Source: Deltaproteobacteria bacterium (GTDB lineage: Bacteria > Myxococcota_A > Polyangia > JAAYKL01). Taken from it: 39,407 bases of DNA. The stretch lies in NCBI GenBank assembly GCA_030621515.1, contig JAUXHN010000014.1:1-39407 (forward strand), read 5' to 3'. How positions within the stretch are numbered: the first letter of the stretch is position 1; every line of letters starts with the position of its first letter. Shown here piece by piece: positions 12,286-31,955 of the stretch. The notes under the pieces were generated by a model. That model saw only the letters and a list, made by a program, of their open reading frames with translations, searched no databases and was not told the DNA's origin. The position numbers and the translations under genes are program-made.

Positions 12286-12340
12286 AATAGATCCTTGCCA
12301 CGGGCGACCATGACGGGGCAAGGGAAAGCGGGGGTCGATC

Positions 12341-12436
12341 CTAAAACTGAAAGTAGATGAATTGCTGGTCAGTGTCCGGGCTAATGATTCGACACCCCAT
12401 CCGCGCCGCCCGGGCCGTGAGCTCCACCTCGCCAAA
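12341..12436 (-). pseudogene. Orphan 3'-end remnant of an MBOAT-type gene
   Basis: Minus-strand reading FGEVELTARAARMGCRIISPDTDQQFIYFQF* after an in-frame stop; the tail matches the MBOAT C-terminus at 24859 (VDTTEQFIYFQF*), with near-identical DNA (AACTGAAAGTAGATGAA shared exactly). Confidence 0.55.
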
Positions 12437-12507
12437 TTAGTAAACCGTAACGCGAGAATACCTCGATGACGGCTCTTCGTCGAGCGACCTGGATCACCCT
12501 CCCCGCA

Positions 12508-13350
12508 CTATCTGTCCTCAAACAACCTCGAGTAGCTGCCATTCTCCAGATGTCCGCCGATAAGCCCACGGATCGACCGCGCCTGCATCTCCCAGTGCTT
12601 CAGCATCAGCTCGGTCATCTTGCCAATGCCGTACCTTGGAAGAAAAAAAAGCAACATCGCGTAGTTTACGAAACAGTCCTGCAGGCACACCATTTGCGGC
12701 CTGTTCTTCTGCTCGAAATCGATCTTCACCTCCCCCTTTACCAACCCGATGTCCCGCGCCTCCGCACTCGTGCTTTGGCCCCAGCGGATCGAACTCCGGA
12801 TCGTGTCATCGCCGCTGAACTCCTCGCTGCCGAAGAGCATCATCACATCCTCGTTTTCGTACCAAAAAACGGGAAGATAAACCTCGACACCGAACGAACG
12901 GGCAAACTCGCCCACCTTCTCGACACAGCGAGGATGCTGGTACGGATAGCAGCTCATCATCACGTTGTGTCCGCCGTAGAGGTGCTCGACTCCGTTCCGC
13001 AGGCAGAACACCAACGCCCGGGCAAAGATCGCCGGGTTGCAGGTGGCGCACGGGAGGTTAGCCCACAGGCCGATCTTGAACATCTCCAACCGGGACCTTC
13101 GCCAGAGATGCCGATGCAACGCCCGGGCATCGAGAACGACATGAACGAACTCCGTATCCACATACTTCTCCCGCAGCATGTTCAGGCCCGGGAGCATATT
13201 CTCAGGTGAGTTGGCCAACTGATCGTGCCCGCGGTGAGCCATGGTGACGCACGTGAGCAGGTAGACCTTCCTCGCCTGCTGTGCGGCCCGGCTCGCCACC
13301 AACGTGGAGTCCACCCCGCCGGAGTACAGCACGGCCGCCCTATCCAACAT
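12508..13350 (-). CDS. PP-loop ATPase (adenine nucleotide alpha-hydrolase-like; QueC/asparagine-synthase-like N-terminus)
   Basis: AAVLYSGGVDSTLVAS signature; LPCATCNPAIFARAL Cys motif. Confidence 0.8.
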   Translation of the reverse strand: MLDRAAVLYSGGVDSTLVASRAAQQARKVYLLTCVTMAHRGHDQLANSPENMLPGLNMLREKYVDTEFVHVVLDARALHRHLWRRSRLEMFKIGLWANLPCATCNPAIFARALVFCLRNGVEHLYGGHNVMMSCYPYQHPRCVEKVGEFARSFGVEVYLPVFWYENEDVMMLFGSEEFSGDDTIRSSIRWGQSTSAEARDIGLVKGEVKIDFEQKNRPQMVCLQDCFVNYAMLLFFLPRYGIGKMTELMLKHWEMQARSIRGLIGGHLENGSYSRLFEDR

Positions 13351-13618
13351 CTCGATCTCCCCGGGTACTGCGCCGCTGCTCTTCGAACAGCCTCATCGTC
13401 TCAACCGCGTACCGGTGGCGCGGGTTCTTCGCCAGCAGCAAGCTCACTGCATAATACAGCTTATTGCTCAACCCAATCGGCAACACCGTGCTCGCCACCA
13501 GGGTCAGCGCGACAGCGACCCGTTCGTACCGCCGGGGAGCGTCCCGAAAGAACGATTGGAGCAACGCCGCGTTTCGCTTCAGTCGCTCGACGTTACGTGT
13601 CGTCTTTTCGTCAATCAC
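13340..13618 (-). CDS. Small protein of unknown function, one possible membrane segment
   Basis: 92 aa; fits between and overlaps neighbouring same-strand genes; VAVALTLVASTVLPIGL hydrophobic stretch. Confidence 0.55.
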   Translation of the reverse strand: MIDEKTTRNVERLKRNAALLQSFFRDAPRRYERVAVALTLVASTVLPIGLSNKLYYAVSLLLAKNPRHRYAVETMRLFEEQRRSTRGDRDVG

Positions 13619-13654
13619 GATCCGAACTCTCCTTGGGCCGCCCGTTGGCTGCCG

Positions 13655-15889
13655 CTAGTCACCGATAAACCACGGCCGCTCGCTCACACCCTTCTTGAGA
13701 GAATACCAGAAGACGACCGGGAGCTCCGGTTGTATCCCCCGAAACTCTGGTTCGCCGTACGTGAAGAAGATGCAGCCGTCGAGATGCCTGGTGAGTACCT
13801 GCCGGTCCTCATGGGTCACCGCGTGGTAACGCCGGGCCACCTCCTCTGCCCGTCGGGTGTCGTCACAGTGCCTGGCCGCCCGACGGACGAAGTCCTCCCT
13901 GAGGGGAAAAGACGCCCACCGTTCCTCGAACACGGGATCGTTGATCGCTCCCACGACCGTGTCGAAGTCCAGCCCGTACCGCTCCCAGATCGAGCTCAAC
14001 AGCTCCGTCTCGAATCCCATCCGGGTGGCCTCCTCCCCCACCGCACCGAGGTACCGATCGATGATCTCGGCCTTCACCTCGTTGCTGCGGCCGTGCAGGT
14101 CGGCAAGGATCAGCCGCACGCTGCCCATTGGGTAGCCGGCGCAGTCGTTGACCGCCTCGACGATGGTCCGTAAGCGCTCGAGAGCGAATCGATCGGCAGT
14201 TCCCAACTCTTCGCGGGCGCCGACCCCCCAGTAGCCCGCGAACTCGAACGCCCCGCGTCGAAGGAGCGCACCCTGCACCAGATCCTCGATCCGGTCGATG
14301 TCCGGCGATCGCGCACGACGAATCTTCTGTGTATTGAACCTGCCGATGATCTCTCTCGCCTTTTCGCCGCTGAGCAGCTTGCGCAGATTCGCAACGTGAA
14401 CCTTGCCCAGTTGGTTGCGCGGCAGATCGGCAAGAAGTTCGAACCGGTCGGGGCACTTGTACGCGGAGAGCCGGTCGAAGACATATCGACGAAGGTCTCG
14501 GGCCAGCCCCGGCTCGTCCGACTCCGGCACACAGGCGGAGACGATCAGTTCCCCCTGTTTCCGATCGCGGATACCGATCGTCGTGCATTCCCGCACGCCG
14601 ACATGGCCGAGCAACACCCCATCGATCTCCTCGGGGTAGATCACATTGCCCTTGCGCTTGATGATGTTCTTGATCCGCCCGACGACCACGAGCTGGCCAT
14701 CCTCGTCCGTATATCCAAGATCGCCGCTCCTGAACCAACCGTCGCAGAGCGCGCCGGGACCAGCCTTCGGATTGCTGTAGCCCTTCATCACACAGTCGCC
14801 GCGAATCAGGATCTCACCGATCCCCAGTCCTCTCCCCTCAAGAGGGGCCGCGCCACCGACCGGTCGGATACGAACCTCGCAACCGAATGGCAGACCCGCA
14901 GTGTCGTAGCGCTTGCGCTCATCCGGCGGAGTCATCGTAGCCCAGGCCGTGGTCTCGGTGAGCCCGTATCCCTGATAGCACGGGAAACCAAACCGCTCCT
15001 CGAACTCGCGCCAGAGCCGCTCGTCCAGTTGAGCCGTACCAACCATGGCGTACTCCACCGAGGAGAGATCCTCCCCGGCGCCCCCTGGAAACAGGTCGAG
15101 CAACGAGGCCATGATCGACGGGGTGAGACTGAGTACGTTCACCGCCCGATCGGCAACGATCTTCCAGAAAAACCGGGCAATGGTGAACCCGTACACCTCA
15201 GCGAGCACGACGTGGGCGCCGCCACGAATGCAGCTCAGCCCGGTCAGCATCGGCGCGTTGATGTGATAGAAGGGGAGAACGCAGAGGAACCGGCGTCCCC
15301 CAGAGTACGGATACACGGAGACAAATGTCGCGGACATCGCGTCCAGGTTTCCGTGGGTCAGCACAATGCCCTTGCTGCTCTGGGTCGTCCCCGAAGTGTA
15401 GATGACAAGTGCCTCGTCCCCCGGGGCGCAGGGGACCACTGCCCACCCTTTGTCCTTGGTAACGCAGTTCTCCACAGCGATGTTGATCCACTGCAAGTCC
15501 ACCGCGTTCCACGCGCAGGCCAAGATCGAGTCGAACGCCTCGACCCGGACCTGTTCATCATGAAACACCAGCGCCGGTCGCGCATCCGCCAGCACCGCAC
15601 GCAACTCGTCGTCGTGGTGCTCTGCCCCGAGCGGCACCATCACGGCCCCCCGAGCGGCGCAGGCAAAGAAGAGCGGATAGAAGAACGGGTTGTTCCTGGT
15701 CAGGTAGGCCACCCGATCGCCACGGCCGATGCCCCGCTCGGCGAGCTGCTTTGCCACGGCGCGAGAGGCGGCCCGAAGGTTGCGATAGGTCAGCGAAACA
15801 TCCCCCCTGATGTCTGTCAGGAAGGTCGCCTCCGGCGTGGCCTCAACGGTAGCTTCAAGGATGTCAATCAGCGGGTTCGCGCCGCTCAT
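13655..15889 (-). CDS. AMP-binding acyl-CoA/acyl-ACP synthetase-like protein with an unassigned C-terminal module of about 240 aa
   Basis: LVIYTSGTTQSSKGIVLTHGNL, YQGYGLTETTAWATM, WFRSGDLGYTDEDGQLVVVGRIKNIIKRKGNVIYPEEID, RNQLGKVHVANLRK; then a long extension ending EPEFRGIQPELPVVFWYSLKKGVSERPWFIGD. Confidence 0.9.
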   Translation of the reverse strand: MSGANPLIDILEATVEATPEATFLTDIRGDVSLTYRNLRAASRAVAKQLAERGIGRGDRVAYLTRNNPFFYPLFFACAARGAVMVPLGAEHHDDELRAVLADARPALVFHDEQVRVEAFDSILACAWNAVDLQWINIAVENCVTKDKGWAVVPCAPGDEALVIYTSGTTQSSKGIVLTHGNLDAMSATFVSVYPYSGGRRFLCVLPFYHINAPMLTGLSCIRGGAHVVLAEVYGFTIARFFWKIVADRAVNVLSLTPSIMASLLDLFPGGAGEDLSSVEYAMVGTAQLDERLWREFEERFGFPCYQGYGLTETTAWATMTPPDERKRYDTAGLPFGCEVRIRPVGGAAPLEGRGLGIGEILIRGDCVMKGYSNPKAGPGALCDGWFRSGDLGYTDEDGQLVVVGRIKNIIKRKGNVIYPEEIDGVLLGHVGVRECTTIGIRDRKQGELIVSACVPESDEPGLARDLRRYVFDRLSAYKCPDRFELLADLPRNQLGKVHVANLRKLLSGEKAREIIGRFNTQKIRRARSPDIDRIEDLVQGALLRRGAFEFAGYWGVGAREELGTADRFALERLRTIVEAVNDCAGYPMGSVRLILADLHGRSNEVKAEIIDRYLGAVGEEATRMGFETELLSSIWERYGLDFDTVVGAINDPVFEERWASFPLREDFVRRAARHCDDTRRAEEVARRYHAVTHEDRQVLTRHLDGCIFFTYGEPEFRGIQPELPVVFWYSLKKGVSERPWFIGD

Positions 15890-16683
15890 GGTGTCGCCTC
15901 TGCTCCCCAGAGCCTGCCCAGATCCACATCGATCAGTCGACTGATCTCATCGACCTCGCGCCGATCGTGCCGTCGCTCGAGTTCGGCCCGGACCGCCGGA
16001 GGCATCTCAACATCCGCTCCCTTGAAGACCACCTCGGTGGTGGGGAACCTGTCCCACTCCACGTTCCGGGAGACCCCGAGAAAGTCGAAGATCTCACCGA
16101 GTACCCGTTGCGGGTGAGCGACCATCCGCTCAAACACGCCGAGGTACAGCTGATCAACGGGAAAGACCCGGCTCCAGTTGTTGATGATCGTCCGGTAGTC
16201 GCCCTGCCTGCAAATTTTGTCGCTGCGGGACGTCTCCAACAGCAGCTCTTCGGTCCAGTCCTCTCGCGGGATCTTCCGGATTACGGAAAGCTCCATCCGA
16301 ATATCGGACCAGTCGCGCGCCACGGGATGGCGCAGCAGCAGAATCAACCGAAGATTGGGCATGATCCGCCTGAGGAACAGGATCTTCCACAGGGGCAAGA
16401 TGCTGTAGGAACCCGTTATCTCACCCTTGCACCGTCCGCCGGCCGCCTCGAAGATCGAGGAGTACTCGGCGAGGGGCCGGGCGAAGTTTTTGTCGAAGTA
16501 CCAGACCGGCTTCTTCACGCACAGGAACAACTCGGGGTGCCGGTAGAGATTGCGGTGCAGCCAGGTGGTGCCGGCCTTGACCGCGCCAATTCCGAGGAAG
16601 TCAGGGAGATAGAGACCGTCGGTACGGCGAACACCGGCGGCGAGAAGCGCCTTCTCCAGGTATCCGCCAACGTGCAGTCTCAA
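15886..16683 (-). CDS. PAPS-dependent sulfotransferase
   Basis: LGIGAVKAGTTWLHRNLYRHPELFL (5'-PSB loop), LRLILLLRHPVARDWSDIRMEL (3'-phosphate binding); likely TTG start overlapping the upstream stop. Confidence 0.88.
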   Translation of the reverse strand: MRLHVGGYLEKALLAAGVRRTDGLYLPDFLGIGAVKAGTTWLHRNLYRHPELFLCVKKPVWYFDKNFARPLAEYSSIFEAAGGRCKGEITGSYSILPLWKILFLRRIMPNLRLILLLRHPVARDWSDIRMELSVIRKIPREDWTEELLLETSRSDKICRQGDYRTIINNWSRVFPVDQLYLGVFERMVAHPQRVLGEIFDFLGVSRNVEWDRFPTTEVVFKGADVEMPPAVRAELERRHDRREVDEISRLIDVDLGRLWGAEATP

Positions 16684-17348
16684 GCCCACTGGATCAACTC
16701 CACGTGCTCCCCGCACGGACCCACCACGAAGCCTACGGTCAACTCCCGTTGGTTCACGCGCACGTGGACCACATCACCGTGGATGCGACCGCCGTGAGCG
16801 CGGAGCCTCTCCATGTCTCCGGTCAGGTCCGTGGTCATGAAGGCGAGAACGACACACCCGGGATCGTCAATGAACTCGAACTCCCTGCGCTCCTCGGCGC
16901 AGGCTTCCAGCAGCAGTCGAACTCGGGACCCGAACAGGTTCTGCTCCATCTCCAACACGCGACGACCGTCCGTTCCCTTCTCTACAACACCGAAACCAAG
17001 TCCGTCGCGCCAGAACCGCTCACCGCGCTCGAGATCGCAGGTGCGCACCGCGATGGTGCTCCGGATACCGTTTGCTGCAACCGCGTCACAGAAGAATGGC
17101 CGGTACACCGAACCGCTCCCGCCGGGGATCCCCACACGACAGTTGATCAGCTCGACTGAGAACGTGCCATCGGCGCCTTGGTAGTACGCGATGTTCTTGC
17201 CCCGACCGCCGTAGAGCGACCCGTCCTCCCTGTCGTCGAAGAGGTCCTCCTGCTCGAACTCCTTCTGATATCCGAACGTCTCGAGGAGCGCCCCCGCCGC
17301 CGCCAAATCAGGCACAGCAATCTGAAGGTGGTCGACTCCCAAGATCAT
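16680..17348 (-). CDS. VOC/glyoxalase-fold protein
   Basis: Two beta-alpha-beta-beta-beta style repeats: MILGVDHLQIAVPDLAAAGALLETFGY and STIAVRTCDLERGERFWRDGLGFGVV; ends GPCGEHVELIQW. Confidence 0.75.
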   Translation of the reverse strand: MILGVDHLQIAVPDLAAAGALLETFGYQKEFEQEDLFDDREDGSLYGGRGKNIAYYQGADGTFSVELINCRVGIPGGSGSVYRPFFCDAVAANGIRSTIAVRTCDLERGERFWRDGLGFGVVEKGTDGRRVLEMEQNLFGSRVRLLLEACAEERREFEFIDDPGCVVLAFMTTDLTGDMERLRAHGGRIHGDVVHVRVNQRELTVGFVVGPCGEHVELIQWA

Positions 17349-17596
17349 GCTCGCTTGGCCTCGATGAAGCCGACCATACTGTCTATCGACTCGAAATTTT
17401 CTTTCTGAAGATCGTCCGGCTCGATGGTGATCGAGAAGCGCGCCTCTAGCTCCACGACGAGTTGGATCAGACCGAACGAATCGACGATGCCCTGTTGCAG
17501 CAGGGAATCCGAATCCTTCACCTCGTCCGACATCTTCGCCTTGAACTCCCTGGTCGTCATTAGGATCTCTCTGATCTCCTCACCAATCATGCGCAT
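17345..17596 (-). CDS. Acyl carrier protein (cassette 1)
   Basis: GIVDSFGLIQLVVELEARFSITIEPDDL: DS-x2-L phosphopantetheine site and ACP helix pattern; start position uncertain. Confidence 0.85.
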   Translation of the reverse strand: MRMIGEEIREILMTTREFKAKMSDEVKDSDSLLQQGIVDSFGLIQLVVELEARFSITIEPDDLQKENFESIDSMVGFIEAKRA

Positions 17597-17621
17597 CCTT
17601 TCATCCGCGGATCCCGGTATG

Positions 17622-19091
17622 TCAAAACTGAAAATACAAAAAGCGATGGTCCGCGATCGCTCCAATCTGAATGTACAGGAAGATCAGCACCAGATAAAAG
17701 ACCATCTGCGTATAGAAGCCCGCACGGCAGATGAAGAGCTGGTCAGCTCGCCGGTACTGCACTGCCTCGTAGAACGCGAGCAGAACCATAATCACGTAAA
17801 GATACCAGTAACGCGCGACGACCAGCGCAAGGGGGTCGAGGTCGGTGAACAGAGCGAAGGTGAATGCCGCGATCTGCTGCAGGTCGTGGGAGCGGAACAG
17901 CAGCATGGCGTAGCAGAAGATGTGGAACATCAACAACACGCGCAGGGTGTTTCCCGCCCAGCGCAGGGGCGTACGACCCGTCTCCGGAACACGGTGCAGG
18001 AGCATCCGAAAACCAACCGTCAACAGCTGCGTGACGTAGATGAAGACCCCGAGCAGCAGGAAGTTGATCGAGGCACCGTGCCAGATGGCGAAGATGAGCC
18101 GGGTGGCCAGCAGCGACAACGTCGCGCCGAGGAGCAGCTGCACCCTGATCCCGCCGAGACGCCGCACCCAGGACAAGGTGGGGATGTAGAAGTAGAGCGG
18201 CATGTAGACGTACTCGGCGATCCACCCGCTGAGGGTGATGTGCCAGCGGCGGAAGAATTCGAAGTAGCTCTTCGAAAAGAACGGCAGGTCGAAGTTGGTG
18301 CTCAGCCGGATACCGAACAGGTGCGAGACGCCGCGAGCCATGTTCGAGTAGCCGGAGAAGTCGCAGTACAGCTGGATGGCGAACGCCCACAGCCCGATCA
18401 ACACCTGCGCGCCCGACGCCTCCGGCGTGTCAAATATCTCGTTGACCACGCGCCCGAGCGAGTCGGCCAGCACGACCTTCTTGAACGCGCCGTACACGAA
18501 GAGGTAGATCCCCTCGCGCAGCTGAACCCGACGCCACTCCTTGACCGCCTGGATCTGAGGCAGCAGATCGCGCGCCTTCTCGATCGGACCGGCGATCAGC
18601 TGGGGGAAGTAGGCCACGTACAGCGAGAAGTCTATCCAGCTTCTGATAGGCTCGAACTTGCCGCGATAGATGTCGATCGTGTAGCTGAGCGTCTGGAATG
18701 TGTAAAACGAGATCCCCAGCGGCAGCACGAGGTTGAGCGTCGTAAACCCCGGATCGAAGCCGAACGCCCCACACAGCGCCACCATGCCCTCGATGAAGAA
18801 ATCGAAGTACTTGAAGAAGCAGAGCAGCGACAGGTTGACGCCGAGGCTCACCAGCAACAGCGCCTTCCTGGTCGACTTCTTCTTCGCGCGGTGAATACCG
18901 AGTCCGCAGTTGTAATCGACGAAGGTGGAGACGAGGATCAGACTGAGGAACCGCCAGTCCCAGGAGCAGTAGAAACCGTAGCTCGCGGCGAGCAGCAACC
19001 GGTTGCGGAAGCGATGTGGCAACGCCCAGTAACAGACGAGGACCAGGCTGACGCAAATGATGAACGCCGGAGAGTGAAAGAGAAAAACCAA
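17622..19091 (-). CDS. MBOAT-family O-acyltransferase (AlgI/DltB-like), cassette 1
   Basis: LVLPLGISFYTFQTLSYTIDIYRGKFEP, YVAYFPQLIAGPIEKARDLLPQ, FFRRWHITLSGWIAEYVYMPL, IFAIWHGASINF, C-terminal FLYFQF. Confidence 0.93.
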   Translation of the reverse strand: MVFLFHSPAFIICVSLVLVCYWALPHRFRNRLLLAASYGFYCSWDWRFLSLILVSTFVDYNCGLGIHRAKKKSTRKALLLVSLGVNLSLLCFFKYFDFFIEGMVALCGAFGFDPGFTTLNLVLPLGISFYTFQTLSYTIDIYRGKFEPIRSWIDFSLYVAYFPQLIAGPIEKARDLLPQIQAVKEWRRVQLREGIYLFVYGAFKKVVLADSLGRVVNEIFDTPEASGAQVLIGLWAFAIQLYCDFSGYSNMARGVSHLFGIRLSTNFDLPFFSKSYFEFFRRWHITLSGWIAEYVYMPLYFYIPTLSWVRRLGGIRVQLLLGATLSLLATRLIFAIWHGASINFLLLGVFIYVTQLLTVGFRMLLHRVPETGRTPLRWAGNTLRVLLMFHIFCYAMLLFRSHDLQQIAAFTFALFTDLDPLALVVARYWYLYVIMVLLAFYEAVQYRRADQLFICRAGFYTQMVFYLVLIFLYIQIGAIADHRFLYFQF

Positions 19092-19099
19092 GCTGCCGC

Positions 19100-20911
19100 C
19101 TACTCGATCTGCTGCTCGCCCAGCTCGGCGTGCAGGGTCCTGGCCACGGCATCCGCGATCAGGCGACTGCCCGCGGATGAGGTGTACTTGAACGGCCTTT
19201 TGTACTCCACGAAATACTCCCTGATCGGCTTCTTTCGCAGAGCTTCCTCGAACACTAGAAGATTGTCGACAAACAGAACGTTTTCATGCGGGGACAATCC
19301 ATGACGAAGGACCTCGACCGAACGGAACGGGAACGACATCACGACGAGCTTTCGTCCCGAACCCGCCACCTTGTCCTGGATCTTCTGGAGCCGCCGAAAG
19401 AACTCCTCATGCTGCCCCTGACTGACCATCCGCAACTCGTTCTCCTTGACTCGCTCCATCCATGTATGGGCCTCCTCGGACCGACCCAGCTCCTCGCAGA
19501 TGAACGCAATCTGCCGCAGCACTTCGCTCGGAACCTCCCCGGAGCTGAGTGTCTCGGCCAGCAAATAGAGATCGAGCGCCTTCTCCTTCGCGCCAATGGC
19601 GAGGTAGCGAGGCGCCAGCCAGGCCGCGATCTCCGACCGGTCGTTCTCGTCCTCTCCACCACCACCTCCTCGCGGCGACGGGAGATCGACAAGGAACCGC
19701 TGCTCCATCTCCTCGAGTAGGGCCCTGGCCGCGGCCCTGTCCCGATTGTGCAATCCCGTACGGGATTGAAAAGCAATCAAACCTCGATAGGCATCCGAAG
19801 AATCTGGAAATCGGTTCTTCCATTCCCGGTAAAAAATTTCCTGGTTGGCACGAAAACGCTGTCGATTGAGATGACGCTCCGCCTCCTCTTGAGATTGCTC
19901 CCCCGCGCCATCCTCCAACGCCGTGTGCCTTGCTTCGCGCTTGAGCCGATTGGACACGTGGCGGCTGAAGCGAAAGGCCTTGTCGAGGGTCTCGTATGCG
20001 CGAGCATCATCCGGATTAAGCTTCATATATCGTCGGCAAGCGACCTCGGCCTCTTTTTGACCGTCAGCGTCCTGACCATAGCAACTACAAGCCTTGAGCA
20101 GGTAGTCCCGATGCGTCGGATCGGACTCTCCCCGCCGACGATAGAGTTCGGCGGCCAGGCGGTACTGCGTAATGCCCTCTTTCAGAAACGAACGGTGTTT
20201 CACGAAATCCTGGCGATCGATGAGGAAACGGCCCAGCATCTCATATCCTGCGGGATCGTCCGGGTGTTCCTCTATATATTGCTCAAACGTTGCCCTGGCC
20301 TGGTCGAGTCGATCCTGCCGGTCGTAGATCCTGGCGAGCGCGAGCTGGTCGCCCGGCACGGATGAGGGCAGGAGCGTTCGCCACTTGCCCCACCAGAGTT
20401 CCAGTTGTGACGACAAATCCTCCTCTAAGATCTGCCCCAACTGGTAGAGCCGGCTGTGCTCGGCGAAGAAGCCGCTGCGGAAGATCGCCGTCTTCTCGCT
20501 CTGTAATTCGGAGATCTCCCCGTCGGTGTCGTGCGATTGGTTGTATTTGATCATGACCACCACTGTGGCCGGATCGTATTCATCGAGGTAATCCTGGATC
20601 GAAACAGACAGCCGATCTATGCCCTGGAGTGCATTACCCCGGTTAACGACATCGAAATCGACCCGGGGGAAAACCACGCTGAGCGCCGCGGCGAGGTGTA
20701 CCGGCCAACCTCGTATCGCCACGCAGCCGCCAAGGCAGAGGACTCGGTAGGCATCTTCGTCACGATCAGCCACTCGGTATTTGATCGTCTGGAGTGTCGA
20801 CCGTGTCAGCTCACCGATGCGAACCGTCACCTCGAGCAGCACGACCACGAGCACCACCCGGAACAGGATGCGCCCCAACCGACGCATCCTCTTTTTAGAG
20901 CAGGTAGTCAC
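19100..20911 (-). CDS. Membrane-anchored SGNH-hydrolase-like protein with internal TPR-type region; catalytic residues appear replaced
   Basis: N-terminal TM; AYRVLCLGGCVAIRGWPVHLAAAL...VVNRGNALQG...YDPATVVVMIKYNQ resembles SGNH blocks; TPR-like middle; LFVDNLLVFEEAL...SSAGSRLIADAVART at the end. Confidence 0.65.
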   Translation of the reverse strand: MTTCSKKRMRRLGRILFRVVLVVVLLEVTVRIGELTRSTLQTIKYRVADRDEDAYRVLCLGGCVAIRGWPVHLAAALSVVFPRVDFDVVNRGNALQGIDRLSVSIQDYLDEYDPATVVVMIKYNQSHDTDGEISELQSEKTAIFRSGFFAEHSRLYQLGQILEEDLSSQLELWWGKWRTLLPSSVPGDQLALARIYDRQDRLDQARATFEQYIEEHPDDPAGYEMLGRFLIDRQDFVKHRSFLKEGITQYRLAAELYRRRGESDPTHRDYLLKACSCYGQDADGQKEAEVACRRYMKLNPDDARAYETLDKAFRFSRHVSNRLKREARHTALEDGAGEQSQEEAERHLNRQRFRANQEIFYREWKNRFPDSSDAYRGLIAFQSRTGLHNRDRAAARALLEEMEQRFLVDLPSPRGGGGGEDENDRSEIAAWLAPRYLAIGAKEKALDLYLLAETLSSGEVPSEVLRQIAFICEELGRSEEAHTWMERVKENELRMVSQGQHEEFFRRLQKIQDKVAGSGRKLVVMSFPFRSVEVLRHGLSPHENVLFVDNLLVFEEALRKKPIREYFVEYKRPFKYTSSAGSRLIADAVARTLHAELGEQQIE

Positions 20912-21139
20912 AGATTTCTATCTATGTTCATTGTGTCTATAGTGCCGCTACCCGAGGAAAAATGGAAGGAAAACACTGTCGCCGCGTTCAACTTCACCGA
21001 AGAATTTCAGTTCTGGTCGGCGAGTGGATGCGCCAGTGAACTGAATAGCCCATATTTTCTTTTTATGGACGTCGTTTTCAGCCACACATTTGATTCTATT
21101 CCTTACCTTTCCATCCATTCATCAAGTAAAATGCATTTC

Positions 21140-22840: not shown

Positions 22841-24567
22841 GGGCGCCGTCGATGAGCGAAGCTCCGCCTTTCGATACCGTAGTGGACTGCCTGCGGTACT
22901 GGGCCGAGCACGAACATGAGGCGTCGGCCTGCGTGTTCCTGCGAGGCGATGCCGACGGCTCCGCCGACTCGCTCTCCTTCGCCGACCTCGATCGTCGGGC
23001 CAGAGAGATCGCAGCGACCCTCCAGGCAAAAGTGGAGCCCGGCGACAGGGTTCTGTTGACCTTATCCTCCAACCGCAACATGGTGCAGGAGTTCTACGGT
23101 TGCCTCTACGCCGGCACCATCCCGGTGCTCTGCCCGATGCCACAACCCAACCGTCCGCAGGGCCTGGTCGCGGGGATCGTCCGCGATTGCGCCCCGGCCG
23201 CCCTGATCGCCACGGCCGAAGCGATCCCGCTGCTGCGCCGGCGCCTGGCCGACGCCCTGCCCGACGCCGCGGTGCACTGGATCCCGGCAGACACGCTCGG
23301 AGAGGCCGATGGGCAGGACTGGGAACCTCCGGCACTCACCCGCAACTCGATCTCCCACCTGCAGTACACCTCGGGCTCCACCTCCCGCCCGCGCGGGGTG
23401 ATGATCAGCCACGGCAACCTGATCCACAACGCCGCGGTCCTCTCGAAAGCGTTTGAGTGGACTCGCCAGACGGTCCCGGTCTCCTGGCTTCCCCTGCACC
23501 ACGACATGGGGCTGGTGGGCTTCCTGCTCGGTCCGCTATGTTACGGGCTGACTACCCACCTGATCCCGCCGCTGGATTTCGTGCAGAGCCCCATCTGCTG
23601 GTTGCGCGCTATCTCCGATTACAGAGGCACCTACACCTCGGCCCCCAACTTCGCCTACGATCTCGCGGTGAGGCGGATCTCGGACGATCAGCGGCGAGAG
23701 CTCGACCTCTCCAGCTGGATCTCCGCAGCCAACGGCTCTGAGCCGGTGCGCCCCGAGACGATCGTTCGCTTCACGGAGGCCTTCGCCCCATGCGGGCTCC
23801 GCCCCGAGGCGATGTTTCCCTGCTACGGCCTGGCCGAGGCCACGCTGATTGTCTCCGGTGGGCCGAACAAGGAACAACCCGTCATATTATCGGTGAATCG
23901 GGAGGCGCTCGCCGATGGGATCATCAAGCCGGTAGAGCCCCACAGCGAAGGGTCGACGGAGATCGCCTCCAGCGGACAGGCGCTGGCCGGACAGAACCCC
24001 CGAGTGGTGGATCCCTCCAGCGGAAAGCGGTTGGGGGATCTCGAGCTTGGGGAGATCTGGGTCGGTGGCGCCAGCGTGGCAGCCGGCTACTGGCAAAAAC
24101 CCCTGGAGAACCGAGAGAGCTTCGGCGCCCGGATTCCGGGTGATCCTCTGAGTTACCTCCGGACCGGCGACCTGGGGTTCCTCCGCAACGGGCAACTGTT
24201 CGTCACCGGTCGGCTCAAGGACCTGATCATCATCCAGGGCCGCAACCACTACCCTCAGGATATCGAGATCACGGTGGAAGATAGCGACCCTGCCCTGCGC
24301 CCCGACTGCGGCGCCGCGTTCTCCATCGACGAGGACGGCGAGGAGCGACTCGTCGTGGTTCAGGAGGTGAAGAGATCGGCCATCGGAAAGCTGGACCCGG
24401 TCGAGGTCACCGACAGAGCGCGGCAGGCGGTGGCGGAACGGCACGGGATCACCCTGCGCGAGCTCGTGCTGATCAGGACCGGAACGCTACCCAAGACATC
24501 CAGCGGCAAGCCACGCAGGCAGGCCTGCCGCCAGGCGTACATCGACAAGAAATATCATCGCCTTTAG
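22837..24567 (+). CDS. Fatty acyl-AMP ligase (FAAL-like), cassette 2
   Basis: LQYTSGSTSRPRGVMISHGNLIHN, SWLPLHHDMGLVGFLLGPL, MFPCYGLAEATLIVSGG, YLRTGDLGFLRNGQLFVTGRLKDLIIIQGRNHYPQDIE; ATGA overlap with the radical SAM gene. Confidence 0.92.
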   Translation: MRAPSMSEAPPFDTVVDCLRYWAEHEHEASACVFLRGDADGSADSLSFADLDRRAREIAATLQAKVEPGDRVLLTLSSNRNMVQEFYGCLYAGTIPVLCPMPQPNRPQGLVAGIVRDCAPAALIATAEAIPLLRRRLADALPDAAVHWIPADTLGEADGQDWEPPALTRNSISHLQYTSGSTSRPRGVMISHGNLIHNAAVLSKAFEWTRQTVPVSWLPLHHDMGLVGFLLGPLCYGLTTHLIPPLDFVQSPICWLRAISDYRGTYTSAPNFAYDLAVRRISDDQRRELDLSSWISAANGSEPVRPETIVRFTEAFAPCGLRPEAMFPCYGLAEATLIVSGGPNKEQPVILSVNREALADGIIKPVEPHSEGSTEIASSGQALAGQNPRVVDPSSGKRLGDLELGEIWVGGASVAAGYWQKPLENRESFGARIPGDPLSYLRTGDLGFLRNGQLFVTGRLKDLIIIQGRNHYPQDIEITVEDSDPALRPDCGAAFSIDEDGEERLVVVQEVKRSAIGKLDPVEVTDRARQAVAERHGITLRELVLIRTGTLPKTSSGKPRRQACRQAYIDKKYHRL

Positions 24568-24619
24568 GGGGTGGCCCACGCCGCCCGATGAACCGTCCGA
24601 CTGGACAGAGGGGAACACC

Positions 24620-24862
24620 GTGCAAACCGAGCAAGAGATCATCGACTGGTTGCGCCAGCGAGTGGCCAGCAAACTCGATGTCAGCGCCGCTGAGATCGGC
24701 GCCGACGTGCCGTTCACCCGGCTGGGCATCGACTCCACCGAGGCGGTGGTGATCACCGGTGAGCTCCAGGAGTTGCTGGAGATCAGGGTGCCTCCCACCG
24801 CATTGTGGGACACTCCCACGATCAAGGAACTGGCCGAGTACCTGCTGAGCAAGTCCGGCTAG
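24620..24862 (+). CDS. Acyl carrier protein (cassette 2)
   Basis: FTRLGIDSTEAVVITGELQELL phosphopantetheine site; 80 aa; GTG start after AGAGGGGA. Confidence 0.93.
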   Translation: MQTEQEIIDWLRQRVASKLDVSAAEIGADVPFTRLGIDSTEAVVITGELQELLEIRVPPTALWDTPTIKELAEYLLSKSG

Positions 24863-26274
24863 AACTGAAAGTAGATGAACTGCTCGGTGGTGTCCACCGC
24901 CCCGTAGAGTATGCCCAGGGTCAGCAGACACCACAGGACGGCCCGGACTGGGGCGGGCATCGACACGTCTTCACGACCTCGCAACTTCAGCCGGGTGGCG
25001 ATCACGCCCAGACCGATCAGGGCGATCATCCCCGCCAGCAAGTATAGCTGGGGACCGAAGCTCATCTTGCCGCCGACGATCCCACCGAGGACCTGCCCCA
25101 GGTGATCCATCGAAGTGCAGCGAAACAGCAGGATCAGGCCGCCGAGGTACAGGGAGTTCAAGACGACGGCCGCCGGATCGGACCACCGGCTCCGGCCGAA
25201 CCAGGGCCGATTGCGCGGGCGCCGGGTGACAATGAAACTACCTTCGTAGAAGGCGATGCCCATCCCGGCGAACAGACCGAGCAGGACGAACATCCAGGTA
25301 GCCCCGTGCCACAGCCCCATCAGCGACAGCACCGTGACCAGGTTGAGCAGCTTGCGCAGCGGCCCAGGCCGGCGCCGACCCATTATCGCGGTGAACAGGT
25401 AGTCGCGAAACCAGTGGCTCAGGGAGATGTGCCAGCGGTTCCAGAAGTCCACCGGGTTGCGAGCCAGGGTGGGCCAGTTGAAGTTCTCCCGCAACCGTAT
25501 GCCGATCATCCTCGCCAGTCCGATAGCGATGTCGGTGTAGCCGCTGAAGTCCATGTAGATCTGCAGGCCGAAGGCGGCGGTAGCCAGGATCAATGCCGGG
25601 GAGCCGGCCTGGCCCGGGTCGACGAAGATCTGATCGACGAACAGGCCCAGGCGGTCGGCGATCACCACCTTTTTGAACAGGCCCCACAGGGCCCGCTGGA
25701 AGCCGATTTCCCGGTCGGCGCGGGTGATATCCAGCTCACGCTGCAGCTGGGGCAACAGGCTGCCGGCACGTTCGATGGGGCCGGCAAGCAACTGGGGGAA
25801 GAAGGCCACGTACAGGGAGAATCCCAACAGATCCCGCGTGGGCTTCACCTTCTCCTGGTAAACGTCAATGGAGTAGGACATGGTCTGGAATGTGTAAAAT
25901 GAGATGCCCAGCGGCGCCATCCAGTGAAACTGCTCGGCGTTGCCCCAGCCCAGCGTGTCGGCCAGCAGGTTCCAGTTCTCGATGCCGAAATCGGCATACT
26001 TGAAGAAGACCAGCAACCCCAGGTTCACCGCGATGCTCAAGGCAAGCCATCGCTTGCCGTGGCCAGTCTCCACGGCGGCGGCAATGCGCTGGGCGGCGAA
26101 GAAGTCCACCAGGGTGGAGGTGAGCAACAGCAGGCAGTACCAGGGGTTGCCGAAACCGTAAAAGACGTAGGAGGCCACCACCAGCATCACCCGCCGCGGA
26201 CGGAACGGGAGCAACCTGTGCAGGACCAGCACCACGGCGAAGAAAATAGCGAAGGTGATCGTGTTGAAGCTCAT
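24859..26274 (-). CDS. MBOAT-family O-acyltransferase (AlgI/DltB-like), cassette 2
   Basis: MAPLGISFYTFQTMSYSIDVYQEKVKP, YVAFFPQLLAGPIERAGSLLPQ, FWNRWHISLSHWFRDYLF, MGLWHGATWMF, C-terminal FIYFQF. Confidence 0.95.
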   Translation of the reverse strand: MSFNTITFAIFFAVVLVLHRLLPFRPRRVMLVVASYVFYGFGNPWYCLLLLTSTLVDFFAAQRIAAAVETGHGKRWLALSIAVNLGLLVFFKYADFGIENWNLLADTLGWGNAEQFHWMAPLGISFYTFQTMSYSIDVYQEKVKPTRDLLGFSLYVAFFPQLLAGPIERAGSLLPQLQRELDITRADREIGFQRALWGLFKKVVIADRLGLFVDQIFVDPGQAGSPALILATAAFGLQIYMDFSGYTDIAIGLARMIGIRLRENFNWPTLARNPVDFWNRWHISLSHWFRDYLFTAIMGRRRPGPLRKLLNLVTVLSLMGLWHGATWMFVLLGLFAGMGIAFYEGSFIVTRRPRNRPWFGRSRWSDPAAVVLNSLYLGGLILLFRCTSMDHLGQVLGGIVGGKMSFGPQLYLLAGMIALIGLGVIATRLKLRGREDVSMPAPVRAVLWCLLTLGILYGAVDTTEQFIYFQF

Positions 26275-27374
26275 CGCCCGAGCTCCTCGTCGATCACCTC
26301 GAGCAGCCGCCGGCCGTAGGCCTCGTGGGCCGTATCGTCGAAGTGTCCGGGGGTGAGGAACCGCTCGGCTTCGACGGACAGATGAAGATCGTGGACCGGG
26401 ATGGACGAGTCATCGAGGACCTCGCCGGCCTCGTCGATGAATCGCTGGACGTTGGCCAGGGAAGCCCGGTCTATCACGCCGGTGTTCACCGGGCACCAGA
26501 TCCACAGAACGCGGGTACCGGTCCCAGCGAGTCGCTCCCGCAGCCGGGGAAGAAAGGCACGGAAGCTCTCCAACCGCTCCCGCAGTCCGCTGTCGTTGAG
26601 CCCTCGTTGCTCGCCCCGCCGCTTTCCCGCCTCCTTCAGCTCGACGAGCGCAGCTCGCTGATCGATCCAGAAGATCGACCCCTCGTCGCTCGCGGCGCTG
26701 TCGAGCCGCTGCCGTGGCCGACGCAGCTTGCCCAGCACCCAGCGGTGCCACCGCATCGACATCTGCTCGGCCGTGAGGTCGAGGACGGCGAACCGAGAAC
26801 GAGCCAGGTGGCTGTGGAGTTGAACGAAGCGCCTGACCATGCCCTCGGTGGTCAGGCTCCCGGCGAAGGCGGCGTCGGGCAGCCATCTCCAGATGGCCGG
26901 ATCACCGGCCAGGAGCGGGATATCGGAGAAGGGGAAATCCAGGTTCATCTGCGGCAAGGGCTCGAAGTTGGTGGCTGCCACGGCAAAGACCACCAGGTCG
27001 GCCCCGCGTTCGACGGCCTTCATCGACAGCAGCTCCATCTCGCTGGCGCGGATCCCCGAGCAGGCCCAGTTCTCCAGGTGTGCCGGCGGCTCCCGCGTCT
27101 CGAGTCCTCGCCGGACGTAGGCCGGAGCTATTTCGGAGGAGTCGGCGATCTCCGGAGCAACCCCCTGTGAGTTGGTGATCAGCACCACCACGGGCGCTTC
27201 GTCCCCGTACTCCACATCGATGTACTCTGGCCAGCCCCGGTGGAAGACCTGGTTGCGGATCACCTCGTCGGCCCCGGGTGTCCGGCCGTAGGGCAAGACG
27301 CGCCAGGCCGTGACCTCGAGCAGAATCAGCATCACGGCGAGCCAGGAGAACGGGCTGCCGGTGATCTTTTTCAT
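26271..27374 (-). CDS. SGNH-fold (AlgJ/DltD-like) membrane-anchored protein, MBOAT partner
   Basis: N-terminal TM; VVVLITNSQGVAPE (nucleophile block), VFAVAATNF, terminal HFDDTAHEAYGRRLLEVI (DxxH); ATGA overlaps with both neighbours. Confidence 0.75.
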   Translation of the reverse strand: MKKITGSPFSWLAVMLILLEVTAWRVLPYGRTPGADEVIRNQVFHRGWPEYIDVEYGDEAPVVVLITNSQGVAPEIADSSEIAPAYVRRGLETREPPAHLENWACSGIRASEMELLSMKAVERGADLVVFAVAATNFEPLPQMNLDFPFSDIPLLAGDPAIWRWLPDAAFAGSLTTEGMVRRFVQLHSHLARSRFAVLDLTAEQMSMRWHRWVLGKLRRPRQRLDSAASDEGSIFWIDQRAALVELKEAGKRRGEQRGLNDSGLRERLESFRAFLPRLRERLAGTGTRVLWIWCPVNTGVIDRASLANVQRFIDEAGEVLDDSSIPVHDLHLSVEAERFLTPGHFDDTAHEAYGRRLLEVIDEELGR

Positions 27375-30121
27375 CGGTCCCGCCCGCCGCCTGCGCCCTC
27401 CCGCGAGTCGATGTAGCCCAGGGCGCGCAACCGCTTTTGCAGATTGCGGTAGAAGTCCTGTGTTTCTTGCGACGGTTGACCGGCCGGCACCGTGTGCTGA
27501 TCGATCCACTCCTCGAGGCGAACGAGCAGCTCCTCGCCCCGATCTCCGCTGCCGGCGAGGTTGACGAGTTCTCCGGGGTCAGCTTGCAGGTCGAACAGCT
27601 CCCGCAGACCCTCGCGGGGATTCAGAATTGCCTTGCGCCGCTCGCTGACCAGCGTGAACTGATTGGGCTTGTTTTTCGCTCCAGCGCGATCGCGACCATT
27701 GCCGGCGTATAACCACGTACGGGCGACCACCTCGCCCCGGGGGCGAGGAGTCCTGCCGGCCGAAGCCTCGCGCACGATATCGTTCACCCAGAAAGTAGAT
27801 GCGGCGCCGAGCACCCGACCGGACTTCTTTGAGCGGGGGTTGTAGATGATCAACGGCACATGCACCAGCTCGTCGTGCACCGTAGCGCCGTGGCCGATCC
27901 GAGTCCGTTCCTTGAACTCCTCGCCGTGGTCGGAGAACAGGATGACCAGGGTATTCTCGGCCAGGCCCAGGGTGTCGAGCCGATCGAGCAGCTGGCCCAC
28001 GTACCGGTCGGTGTGGAACAGCTCGGCCTGGTGCAACGCGACGAGGCACTCTACCTCCGTGGGAGTCAAGCTGTCCTCGATCCGACGGATCTCGTCCACG
28101 TCGAGGTTGTTCACCACTCTCCCACAGCGCTCCGGGTCGTACCCGAACCGGCGCTCCACCTCGGATGGAGGCGCGTAGTTCAGGTGCGGATCCAAGTAGT
28201 GCACCCAGAGAAAGAACCGGTCGTCCCGGTGCTGCCCAAGCCATCGGGACACCTCGTTGGTAAGCTGGGGCGCGGTCACGCTGTACCGGCCCTTGCTGAT
28301 GTTGGTCACCTCTTGGAAGCCGCGCATCAGGTTTCCTGGGGCGGTTTGCTCGTTGTCCGTCATGTTGAGGGCGTAGTGATCGGTGAGCGCGGCCGTGGTG
28401 AAACCCCGCGCTGTCATCTCCTCGCCGAGGAACGATTGCTTCTCGTAGTGAGCCAGCACGTGTTCCATGGGCTCGTTGGCGATCAGCGACCCGGACATGA
28501 TCGCGGTGAATGCGGGCAGGGTAACCGGCGCCGGGCTGTAGGCGTTCTCGAACAGGATGCTCTTCTCGGCGTAGGCGCAGATATTGGGAGTGGTGTCTCT
28601 CTCGTTGCCGTAACACGGCAGGTGATCGGCACGGACCGTGTCGATGGTGAGCAGCAGTACGTTGCAATCGGGGCACGCCAGACCGGATAAGGCCTCTTTA
28701 ACGGACAACGAGTCGTCCTTCACCAAATAGCCGAGCGCCTCGAGCCGCGCGCGCTGCTCGGCGTCAACATCGACCTTGTCGGGGCGCTCCGCCGCCGGCC
28801 TGGCCGCCCAGTCCAGGCGGGCGGCCTTTAACTCGTCGAGCCGAGCCTCGAGGCGATCCTGCTCCTCGGGGTACGCCGCAGCGAGGTCGTCCTGCTCGCC
28901 CGGGTCGCGCTCGAGGTCGAACAGTTGCTGACCGTTCTCCCGGCGGCGGTTGTAGTACTTCCACTTGCCCAGGTGCAGGCTCTCTGGTAGCTCGTTCTCC
29001 ACCGCGTCCCGCTGGGCCACCGACTCCTCGATCGAACTCTCTCCGTCCAGGGCGAAGCCGAGCAGGCTCTGGCCGTCGATCCCTCGGGCCGGCGGCAGAT
29101 CGGCCGCCTCGAGCAGGGTGGGAAGGATGTCGATGCCGCGGGAGATACCGCGTACTCTCTTGCCGGCCAGGACTTTCCCCGGCAGCTTGACGATCAACGG
29201 CACGCGCAGCAGCTCGTCGTACAGGGTGTGCGAGTGCCACCCCATCCAGCCGTGCTCGCCGAACTCCTCGCCGTGGTCCGAAGTGAAGACGATCAGGGTG
29301 TCGTCGTACAGGCCGAGCTTCTGGAGCTGCGACACCAGATTGCCGAACGCCTCGTCTACCGAGTGGATCTCCGCGCCGTAGGTGGCGATGATGTGGCGGC
29401 GATCATCGTCGTCGATCTCGAGCTGGCCGTGGTTGATCTTGTTGAGCAGATCCTTGTCGATGTAGTCCGGCAGCTCGCCGTCGTAGCGGTGGCCGATGGC
29501 GTCGAGATGGCGCTGCTCTGCCAGGTAGGGATGGTGCGGCTCGTAGGTGTGGAGGAAAAGGAAGAACTGCTCGTCCTGATGCTGTTCGAGCCAGTCGTTG
29601 GCCTGCTCGACCGTCTTGCGGAAGCGAGCGCGGATCCCCCGCTTGAACACCGTGTTGTACTCGTCGAACCCCTGGCTGAAGCCCCAGAGCCGATCGACCT
29701 GTCCGGAGTCGCTGAAGCCCGCGGTGCGGTAGCCGCCGGCCTTGAAGAGCTCGGCCATGGTGACCATCTCTTCGGGCAACGGCACCTTGCGAGAGAAGAA
29801 CGCCCCGTGGTGGGATGGGATCAGCGAGGTGAAGATGGAGGCGTGGGACGGCTCGGTGGACGGGGCCTGGGCCAGGCTGGTCTCGAACAGGACCGCGTCC
29901 CGCGCGAAGCGGTCGACGAACGGCGAGGTGGGGTGCTCCCACCCGTAGCAACCGAGGTGATCGGCCCGCAGTGTATCGATGGAAATCAAGATCACGTTGG
30001 CGCCCTTCCACGGCCAGGGTGCCCCGGACTGTTCGCGACCCACGAGTCGGAGCAGGGCGAACAGCACCATCAGGCCACACGCGGCGGCGATCACAACAGC
30101 GACTATTGTTTTCCTTCTCAT
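27371..30121 (-). CDS. Tandem fusion of two sulfatase-fold (alkaline phosphatase superfamily) domains with N-terminal TM anchor
   Basis: Domain 1 NVILISIDTLRADHLGCYGWEHPTSP...STEPSHASIFTS...FTSDHGEEFGEHG; domain 2 NVLLLTIDTVRADHLPCYGNERDTTP...VTLPAFTAIMSG...LFSDHGEEFKERT. Confidence 0.9.
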   Translation of the reverse strand: MRRKTIVAVVIAAACGLMVLFALLRLVGREQSGAPWPWKGANVILISIDTLRADHLGCYGWEHPTSPFVDRFARDAVLFETSLAQAPSTEPSHASIFTSLIPSHHGAFFSRKVPLPEEMVTMAELFKAGGYRTAGFSDSGQVDRLWGFSQGFDEYNTVFKRGIRARFRKTVEQANDWLEQHQDEQFFLFLHTYEPHHPYLAEQRHLDAIGHRYDGELPDYIDKDLLNKINHGQLEIDDDDRRHIIATYGAEIHSVDEAFGNLVSQLQKLGLYDDTLIVFTSDHGEEFGEHGWMGWHSHTLYDELLRVPLIVKLPGKVLAGKRVRGISRGIDILPTLLEAADLPPARGIDGQSLLGFALDGESSIEESVAQRDAVENELPESLHLGKWKYYNRRRENGQQLFDLERDPGEQDDLAAAYPEEQDRLEARLDELKAARLDWAARPAAERPDKVDVDAEQRARLEALGYLVKDDSLSVKEALSGLACPDCNVLLLTIDTVRADHLPCYGNERDTTPNICAYAEKSILFENAYSPAPVTLPAFTAIMSGSLIANEPMEHVLAHYEKQSFLGEEMTARGFTTAALTDHYALNMTDNEQTAPGNLMRGFQEVTNISKGRYSVTAPQLTNEVSRWLGQHRDDRFFLWVHYLDPHLNYAPPSEVERRFGYDPERCGRVVNNLDVDEIRRIEDSLTPTEVECLVALHQAELFHTDRYVGQLLDRLDTLGLAENTLVILFSDHGEEFKERTRIGHGATVHDELVHVPLIIYNPRSKKSGRVLGAASTFWVNDIVREASAGRTPRPRGEVVARTWLYAGNGRDRAGAKNKPNQFTLVSERRKAILNPREGLRELFDLQADPGELVNLAGSGDRGEELLVRLEEWIDQHTVPAGQPSQETQDFYRNLQKRLRALGYIDSREGAGGGRDR

Positions 30122-30166
30122 GATAAGCTGCAATTCATACGATATTCCCGTGTATTTATAAAGCGA

Positions 30167-31855: not shown

Positions 31856-31955
31856 GGGCTGAATGATAACACTCAATCTCCGATTCTACTCTCAAGGATT
31901 TTCTGTTATCGTCGCGCTTGATTGACATGCATTTTCCGAGTCGAAGGAGCTTCAC

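Follow-up and report, generated by a model that had tools for sequence, protein, structure and literature searches.

The subject of this work is a contig of 39,407 nucleotides (JAUXHN010000014.1, here C191 and called the window) from the 4.64-Mb draft genome, in 346 contigs, of a Deltaproteobacteria bacterium (GCA_030621515.1), and in particular the acyl-transfer genes lying there between two GT-C glycosyltransferase genes, GT39a and GT39b. The reading that we prefer, with a probability of about 60%, is that these genes form a swapped-in block that combines a self-contained acyl-export operon with a divergent copy of the operon resident at this place. A first-pass annotation had described them as two parallel Dlt-like cassettes, each composed of an adenylating ligase, an acyl carrier protein (ACP), a protein of the MBOAT family, and an SGNH-like protein. 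All the genes it named have been found where it placed them by open reading frame (ORF) and domain checks, with domains assigned throughout by Pfam and NCBIfam profile matches and the SGNH-like proteins by motifs only. Such matches confirm the AMP-forming ligase, the fatty acyl-AMP ligase (FAAL), both ACPs, both MBOATs, and the VOC, sulfotransferase, and PP-loop proteins. The arrangement in two parallel cassettes, on the other hand, is not supported.

The block between GT39a and GT39b

The interval singled out in the first-pass annotation, 12286–30133, coincides with a block that the sister species does not have, and its boundary is real. The sister species, which belongs to the same genus (G002; locus L046, G002:C143), has a matching neighbourhood on both sides, with amino-acid identities of 94% for acs, 86% for sulfatase A, 88% for GT39a, 92% for GT39b, and 87% for the S1 protein. 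At the DNA level, the left flank (to window base 12321) is 90.6% and the right flank (30100 onward) 88.3% identical to L046; the interior is mostly unalignable, with matches of only 64–81% except for one 42-bp stretch. Delimited by the identity of its flanks to L046, the replaced block (12383–30099) comprises 17.7 kb, as compared with 5.3 kb in the sister species, where a lipoprotein-like ORF, an MBOAT gene, an SGNH2 homologue, and two separate sulfatase-like genes are found between GT39a and GT39b. The products of this smaller operon are 55% identical to MBOAT2 of the window, 38% to its SGNH protein, and 45–47% to its sulfatase-like domains. The flanking genes on the minus strand, GT39a (10807–12285, probable start GTG at 12285; Pfam PMT_2 3.8e-6) and GT39b (30167–31876, PMT_2 plus TPR; PMT_2 5.8e-14), both match PMT_2, in agreement with the GT39-type enzymes proposed earlier.

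Both edges of the block are informative. Directly upstream of GT39a, outside any MBOAT gene, lies a scar (12341–12382, minus strand) in which the resident MBOAT gene survives with its final 14 codons (SPDTDQQFIYFQF*); it shares 40 of its 42 bases with the 3′ end of the sister MBOAT gene and only about 74%, by a by-eye count, with the tail of the window's own MBOAT2. The right edge falls just within the sulfatase gene, among its conserved initial codons. The tree of the MBOATs joins the G002 copy to that of G009, a genome of another genus, and not to MBOAT2 of the window (100/96), a grouping to be expected if the block was exchanged. The tetranucleotide departure amounts to 0.27–0.33 at 21–30 kb and 0.22 at 12–21 kb, against a background of 0.15–0.20. 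The simplest reading of these alignments is that a resident MBOAT-SGNH-sulfatase operon would have been exchanged for a divergent copy together with about 12 kb of new genes, with the end of the old MBOAT gene left behind. The replaced block and the gene-tail scar also suggest that such kits are swapped like surface-antigen cassettes.

A misassembly, in which a foreign 17.7-kb stretch was joined between true flanks, is very improbable, even though a draft genome in 346 contigs leaves room for it: the sister species is collinear on either side, and a homologous MBOAT-SGNH-sulfatase operon occupies the same place in the same orientation within the block. Since the 42 bp left of the old MBOAT gene at the left edge, the right edge inside conserved sulfatase codons, and the homologous operon fit recombination better than random joining, an exchange in the genome itself is preferred.

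The lipoprotein-like ORF of the sister species (L046 8624–9877, plus strand), which carries TDTD repeats and is located between GT39a and the MBOAT gene, is absent from the window; this difference may be a gain in one lineage or a loss in the other. In a third congeneric genome (G001), no match to GT39b was detected, and its GT39a homologues (44–56%) are not accompanied by such a cluster; no MBOAT was seen in the GT39b neighbourhoods of G006, G009, and G011.

Cassette 1 and its probably carrier-fed MBOAT

By its layout, cassette 1 is one transcription unit. Its genes, all on the minus strand, are transcribed in the order SGNH1 (19100–20911, a TPR protein with SGNH-like motifs recognized by motif alignment; TPR_14 1.6e-8), MBOAT1 (17622–19091; PF03062 1.7e-18), ACP1 (17345–17596, start at about 17596, attachment site GIVDS; PP-binding 3.9e-7, NCBIfam AmcB 47 bits and DltC 37 bits), the VOC protein of the glyoxalase/dioxygenase superfamily (16680–17348; Glyoxalase_4 1.8e-8), the sulfotransferase (15886–16716; Sulfotransfer_3 6.6e-13), and ligase1 (13655–15889; AMP-binding 3.8e-72), an AMP-forming acyl ligase with a C-terminal domain at residues of about 510–744. 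Neighbouring genes overlap or are separated by about 30 bp at most, with 26 bp between MBOAT1 and ACP1; the gene of a QueC/MnmA-like PP-loop ATP pyrophosphatase (12508–13350, minus strand; Pfam QueC 5.8e-7) is located 304 bp beyond ligase1. Because cassette 1 is a single tightly packed minus-strand run, ligase1, ACP1, and MBOAT1 very probably act jointly.

Both MBOATs of the window exceed the PF03062 cut-off, possess the invariant His in a WHG motif, and end in an FXYXXF motif, which is FLYFQF in MBOAT1 and FIYFQF in MBOAT2. Such a tail serves as the acyl acceptor in PatA, while in the Dlt system it resides on a separate protein, DltX (PMC12148441). According to the same 2025 paper, MBOAT-SGNH systems other than Dlt have no carrier protein and evidently use acyl-CoA (PMC12148441).

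Cassette 1 shares with DltXABCD the presence of an adenylating enzyme, a stand-alone carrier, an MBOAT, and an SGNH-like partner in one operon, but differs from it in several respects. The two MBOATs of the window reach only 140 and 147 bits on the DltB model, whose cut-off is 375; the shuttle motif forms part of the MBOAT instead of being carried by DltX; ligase1 has an extra C-terminal domain and SGNH1 lacks the catalytic residues; and the locus, in a Gram-negative-type setting, adds sulfotransferase, VOC, PP-loop, and radical SAM genes. By the tests made, cassette 1 is thus not a member of the Dlt family, given the DltB score below cut-off and the shuttle inside the MBOAT. With PatA/PatB, AlgI/AlgX(J), and WssH/I, the window has in common an MBOAT ending in FXYXXF beside an SGNH-like gene, and MBOAT2-SGNH2, as found in G002 and G009, fits this kind; these systems reportedly use acyl-CoA and have no carrier protein (PMC12148441), whereas cassette 1 has both a ligase and a carrier. 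From its gene content and motifs, cassette 1 would therefore work like a hybrid of the Dlt and PatA systems, with a built-in shuttle tail and a ligase-ACP pair in one operon. If this is true, a Dlt-style carrier route and a PatA-style shuttle are combinable, and bacteria could use the combined route to decorate their surface with specialised acids beyond acetate or D-alanine.

How common such an arrangement is was assessed in 63 other MBOAT loci (61 from other genomes of the class and 2 elsewhere in the source genome), which were mostly chosen by similarity and are not a random sample. A ligase and an ACP adjoin the MBOAT in two of the 63, although further small ACPs may have been missed by the screen, since that of the first locus escaped it and was confirmed with Pfam afterwards. 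This locus, in G014 (L098, G014:C44, 898–5652), encodes MBOAT, ACP, FAAL, and SGNH in a single run, and its MBOAT falls into the clade of MBOAT1 (97/92, MBOAT tree). The second, in G004 (L082, G004:C147), contains a ligase, a ligase-ACP fusion, an SGNH-like gene, a DltB-type MBOAT without the shuttle tail, and a radical SAM gene; like the window locus, it adjoins a GT39b homologue. A DltX-like ORF was looked for at L082 and was not found. Both loci resemble cassette 1 in their carrier-fed MBOAT-SGNH layout, and in G014 the SGNH protein shares with SGNH1 a Cys at the Ser position; they differ from it in having no sulfotransferase, VOC, PP-loop protein, or ligase C-terminal domain, and G004 also in its tail-less MBOAT. 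The carrier-fed MBOAT-SGNH theme, as far as the compared gene orders reveal it, is recurrent but rare. The co-occurrence of both cassettes in relatives, whose absence the first-pass annotation had named as refuting its reading, has not been observed: single ligase-ACP-MBOAT-SGNH runs recur, the whole pair does not. A literature search retrieved no carrier-fed MBOAT outside Dlt, which is not proof of absence, and the two plasmid MBOAT loci inspected have no ligase or carrier listed.

Downstream of the G014 run lie a gene whose product is a membrane protein resembling UbiA and two B12 radical SAM genes that are near-duplicates of each other.

Cassette 2 as two convergent runs

The genes grouped earlier as cassette 2 belong, by their layout, to two transcription units and not to one. 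The radical SAM gene (20984–22840), the FAAL gene overlapping it by 4 bp (22837–24567; FadD32-type FAAL model 434 bits), and ACP2 (24620–24862, attachment site GIDS; PP-binding 1.7e-16) form a plus-strand run, while the fused sulfatase-like gene (27371–30121; PF00884 4.3e-87), SGNH2 (26271–27374), and MBOAT2 (24859–26274; PF03062 2.2e-21, WHG motif) constitute a separate minus-strand run; ACP2 and MBOAT2 converge at 24859–24862. The Dlt-like ligase-ACP-MBOAT-SGNH logic of the first-pass annotation is consequently retained for cassette 1, a single run, and not for the two convergent runs of cassette 2.

Two truly parallel cassettes, ligase1-ACP1-MBOAT1-SGNH1 and FAAL-ACP2-MBOAT2-SGNH2, each with a dedicated carrier supply, therefore appear rather unlikely. 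Ligase, carrier, MBOAT, and SGNH-like gene do each occur twice within 14 kb, inside one replaced block; FAAL, ACP2, MBOAT2, and SGNH2 all lie in the stretch of most deviant composition (21–30 kb); and a FAAL-ACP-MBOAT-SGNH operon exists in G014. However, the G014 MBOAT clusters with MBOAT1 and not with MBOAT2, FAAL-ACP2 (in one run with the radical SAM gene) and MBOAT2-SGNH2 are on opposite strands, and the MBOAT2-SGNH2 module has neither ligase nor ACP in the only two other genomes that possess it. SGNH2 homologues have been found in just three of the 241 genomes of the class, namely the source genome, G002 (38–39% identity), and G009 (34–35%). In G002 and G009, the run is MBOAT-SGNH-sulfatase-sulfatase with no ligase or ACP, so FAAL-ACP2 is not a constant partner of MBOAT2-SGNH2. 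The MBOATs of these two genomes and MBOAT2 form one clade (100/100). FAAL-ACP2 may still feed MBOAT2-SGNH2 in the source strain, because both belong to one block and match it in composition. An origin of the two sets by tandem duplication of one cassette was rejected, as the two MBOATs belong to different supported clades.

The individual proteins of the two runs bear out the earlier assignments to different degrees. In SGNH2, the Ser and the His (TNSQG ... GHFDDTAH) are kept in the three homologues and Asp is not at its usual place; with no GDSL/SGNH family match in Pfam or NCBIfam, the assignment relies on the motifs shared with the G002 and G009 homologues. FAAL scores 426–434 bits on FAAL models, below their equivalog cut-offs, with ACP2 adjacent. 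The protein described earlier as a B12-dependent radical SAM enzyme is indeed a radical SAM protein (PF04055 3.1e-16) related to PhpK; the B12 part is less certain, as the PhpK model (TIGR04479) gives only 182 bits against a cut-off of 600 and a B12-binding domain (PF02310) was not matched. As a marker of the cluster it was rejected, for a 52% homologue resides elsewhere in the sister species, without FAAL or MBOAT.

The fused sulfatase-like gene encodes 920 amino acids with two domains of the alkaline phosphatase superfamily, which are two separate genes in G002 and G009. Three sulfatase domains, two in this protein (TEPSH and TLPAF) and one in sulfatase A (TTPAH; 9299–10810, minus strand), have Thr at the formylglycine position, and the formylglycine sulfatase motif C/S-x-P/A-x-R is absent from the sulfatase-like domains. 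Thr is found at the nucleophile position of phosphoethanolamine transferases and LtaS, and the sulfatase-like proteins show weak NCBIfam matches toward this kind. The label "sulfatase" may thus be a misnomer.

A possible acyl route and its alternatives

Under the preferred reading of a swapped-in block, ligase1 would adenylate a carboxylic acid and load it onto ACP1, and MBOAT1 would move the acyl group from ACP1 across the membrane onto its own FLYFQF Tyr, by analogy with PatA and DltX. Outside, the SGNH-like partner or another acceptor would take over the acyl group; this is the weakest step, because neither the catalytic Ser nor the catalytic His is present in SGNH1. The sulfotransferase and the VOC protein, to judge from their place in the operon, could tailor the acyl group either on the carrier or as a free acid. 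MBOAT2, SGNH2, and the fused sulfatases, the divergent copy of the resident operon, would move a second acyl group supplied by the convergent FAAL-ACP2 or by the general acyl-CoA/ACP pool. What the acyl groups are transferred to is probably a glycan or lipid of the cell envelope on which the flanking glycosyltransferases act, as their position suggests. In agreement with the first-pass annotation, no named pathway with this gene set has been found. Only tentatively can the locus be regarded as a branch of MBOAT-SGNH envelope acylation of its own, in which a dedicated ligase and carrier supply an MBOAT that contains its own Tyr shuttle, the acyl group is unusual and tailored (e.g., a sulfated aryl or fatty acid), the block is swapped at a hypervariable surface locus between GT-C genes, the ligase C-terminal domain is an uncharacterized catalytic one, and the SGNH-like partner uses Cys.

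Several observations weigh against the preferred reading. Foreign composition is clear only at 21–30 kb. In SGNH1, the Ser position is taken by Cys (LCLGGCVAIRG), the last block (EYKRPFKYT) contains no His, and no GDSL/SGNH family of Pfam or NCBIfam is matched. No MBOAT has been seen beside the ligase1 relatives in the stretches read of G018, G137, and G380; with genes for polyketide synthase (PKS), OleA, or FAAL next to these relatives instead, ACP1 could pass its acyl group elsewhere than to MBOAT1.

The last point leads to another explanation, in which a soluble or secreted specialised metabolite is the product of the ligase, ACP, radical SAM, VOC, and sulfotransferase genes, with MBOATs that only acylate it or are unrelated neighbours. 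It draws on the ligase1 relatives, whose clusters contain PKS, OleA/OleC, or carbamoyltransferase genes and no MBOAT, on the similarity of FAAL, which is closest to FAALs loading nonribosomal peptide synthetases (NRPS) and PKS (45–47%), and on the apparently non-catalytic SGNH1. This explanation is improbable nevertheless, as the window encodes neither ketosynthase (KS) nor PKS nor NRPS, 26 bp separate MBOAT1 from ACP1 in a tight run with ligase1, and both MBOATs bear the extracytoplasmic shuttle motif.

SGNH1 itself does not show a strict Ser-His-Asp triad, and relatives of it were found neither in the 241 genomes of the class nor in a plasmid search. The G014 SGNH protein likewise has Cys at the Ser position (IGACFAAG), with a candidate His kept. 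An AlphaFold model of SGNH1 alone is unusable (pLDDT 48).

The approximately 235 extra C-terminal residues of ligase1 belong to no Pfam or NCBIfam family and retrieve no PDB sequence with a meaningful E-value. A two-sequence AlphaFold model of this domain is poor (pLDDT 54), and a fold search with it returned nothing below 1e-3; cyclodipeptide synthases recur among the weak matches (E 0.03–0.2), which, with so poor a model, is a lead only. Scanned for this domain, the genome contigs yielded just the known G018 contig and the plasmids no match; in the plasmid searches with other proteins, the PP-loop matches were weak and those to the ligase and FAAL generic. Whole-length relatives of ligase1 (34–37%) exist in G018, G137, and G380. 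In G018 (L007/L079, G018:C92), an ACP gene and a FAAL-like multidomain gene come after it; in G137 (L077, G137:C78), genes for OleA/OleC-like enzymes and a FAAL come after a second, partial relative; and in G380 (L078, G380:C126), where the extra domain is shortened, a carbamoyltransferase and KS/PKS genes are nearby, the names of these neighbours beyond Pfam having been assigned by reading the sequences. This context suggests a role of the ligase1 family in specialised metabolism, together with carrier proteins, and the loci with the extra domain could possibly represent an unstudied natural-product family.

Finally, at 35634–37502 (minus strand) of the window, 3.8 kb from GT39b, a MobA-like nucleotidyltransferase is fused to a 2-aminoethylphosphonate transaminase (TIGR03301, 315 bits against a cut-off of 360.8), and this fusion resembles the PntC-AEPT fusions of phosphonate pathways.

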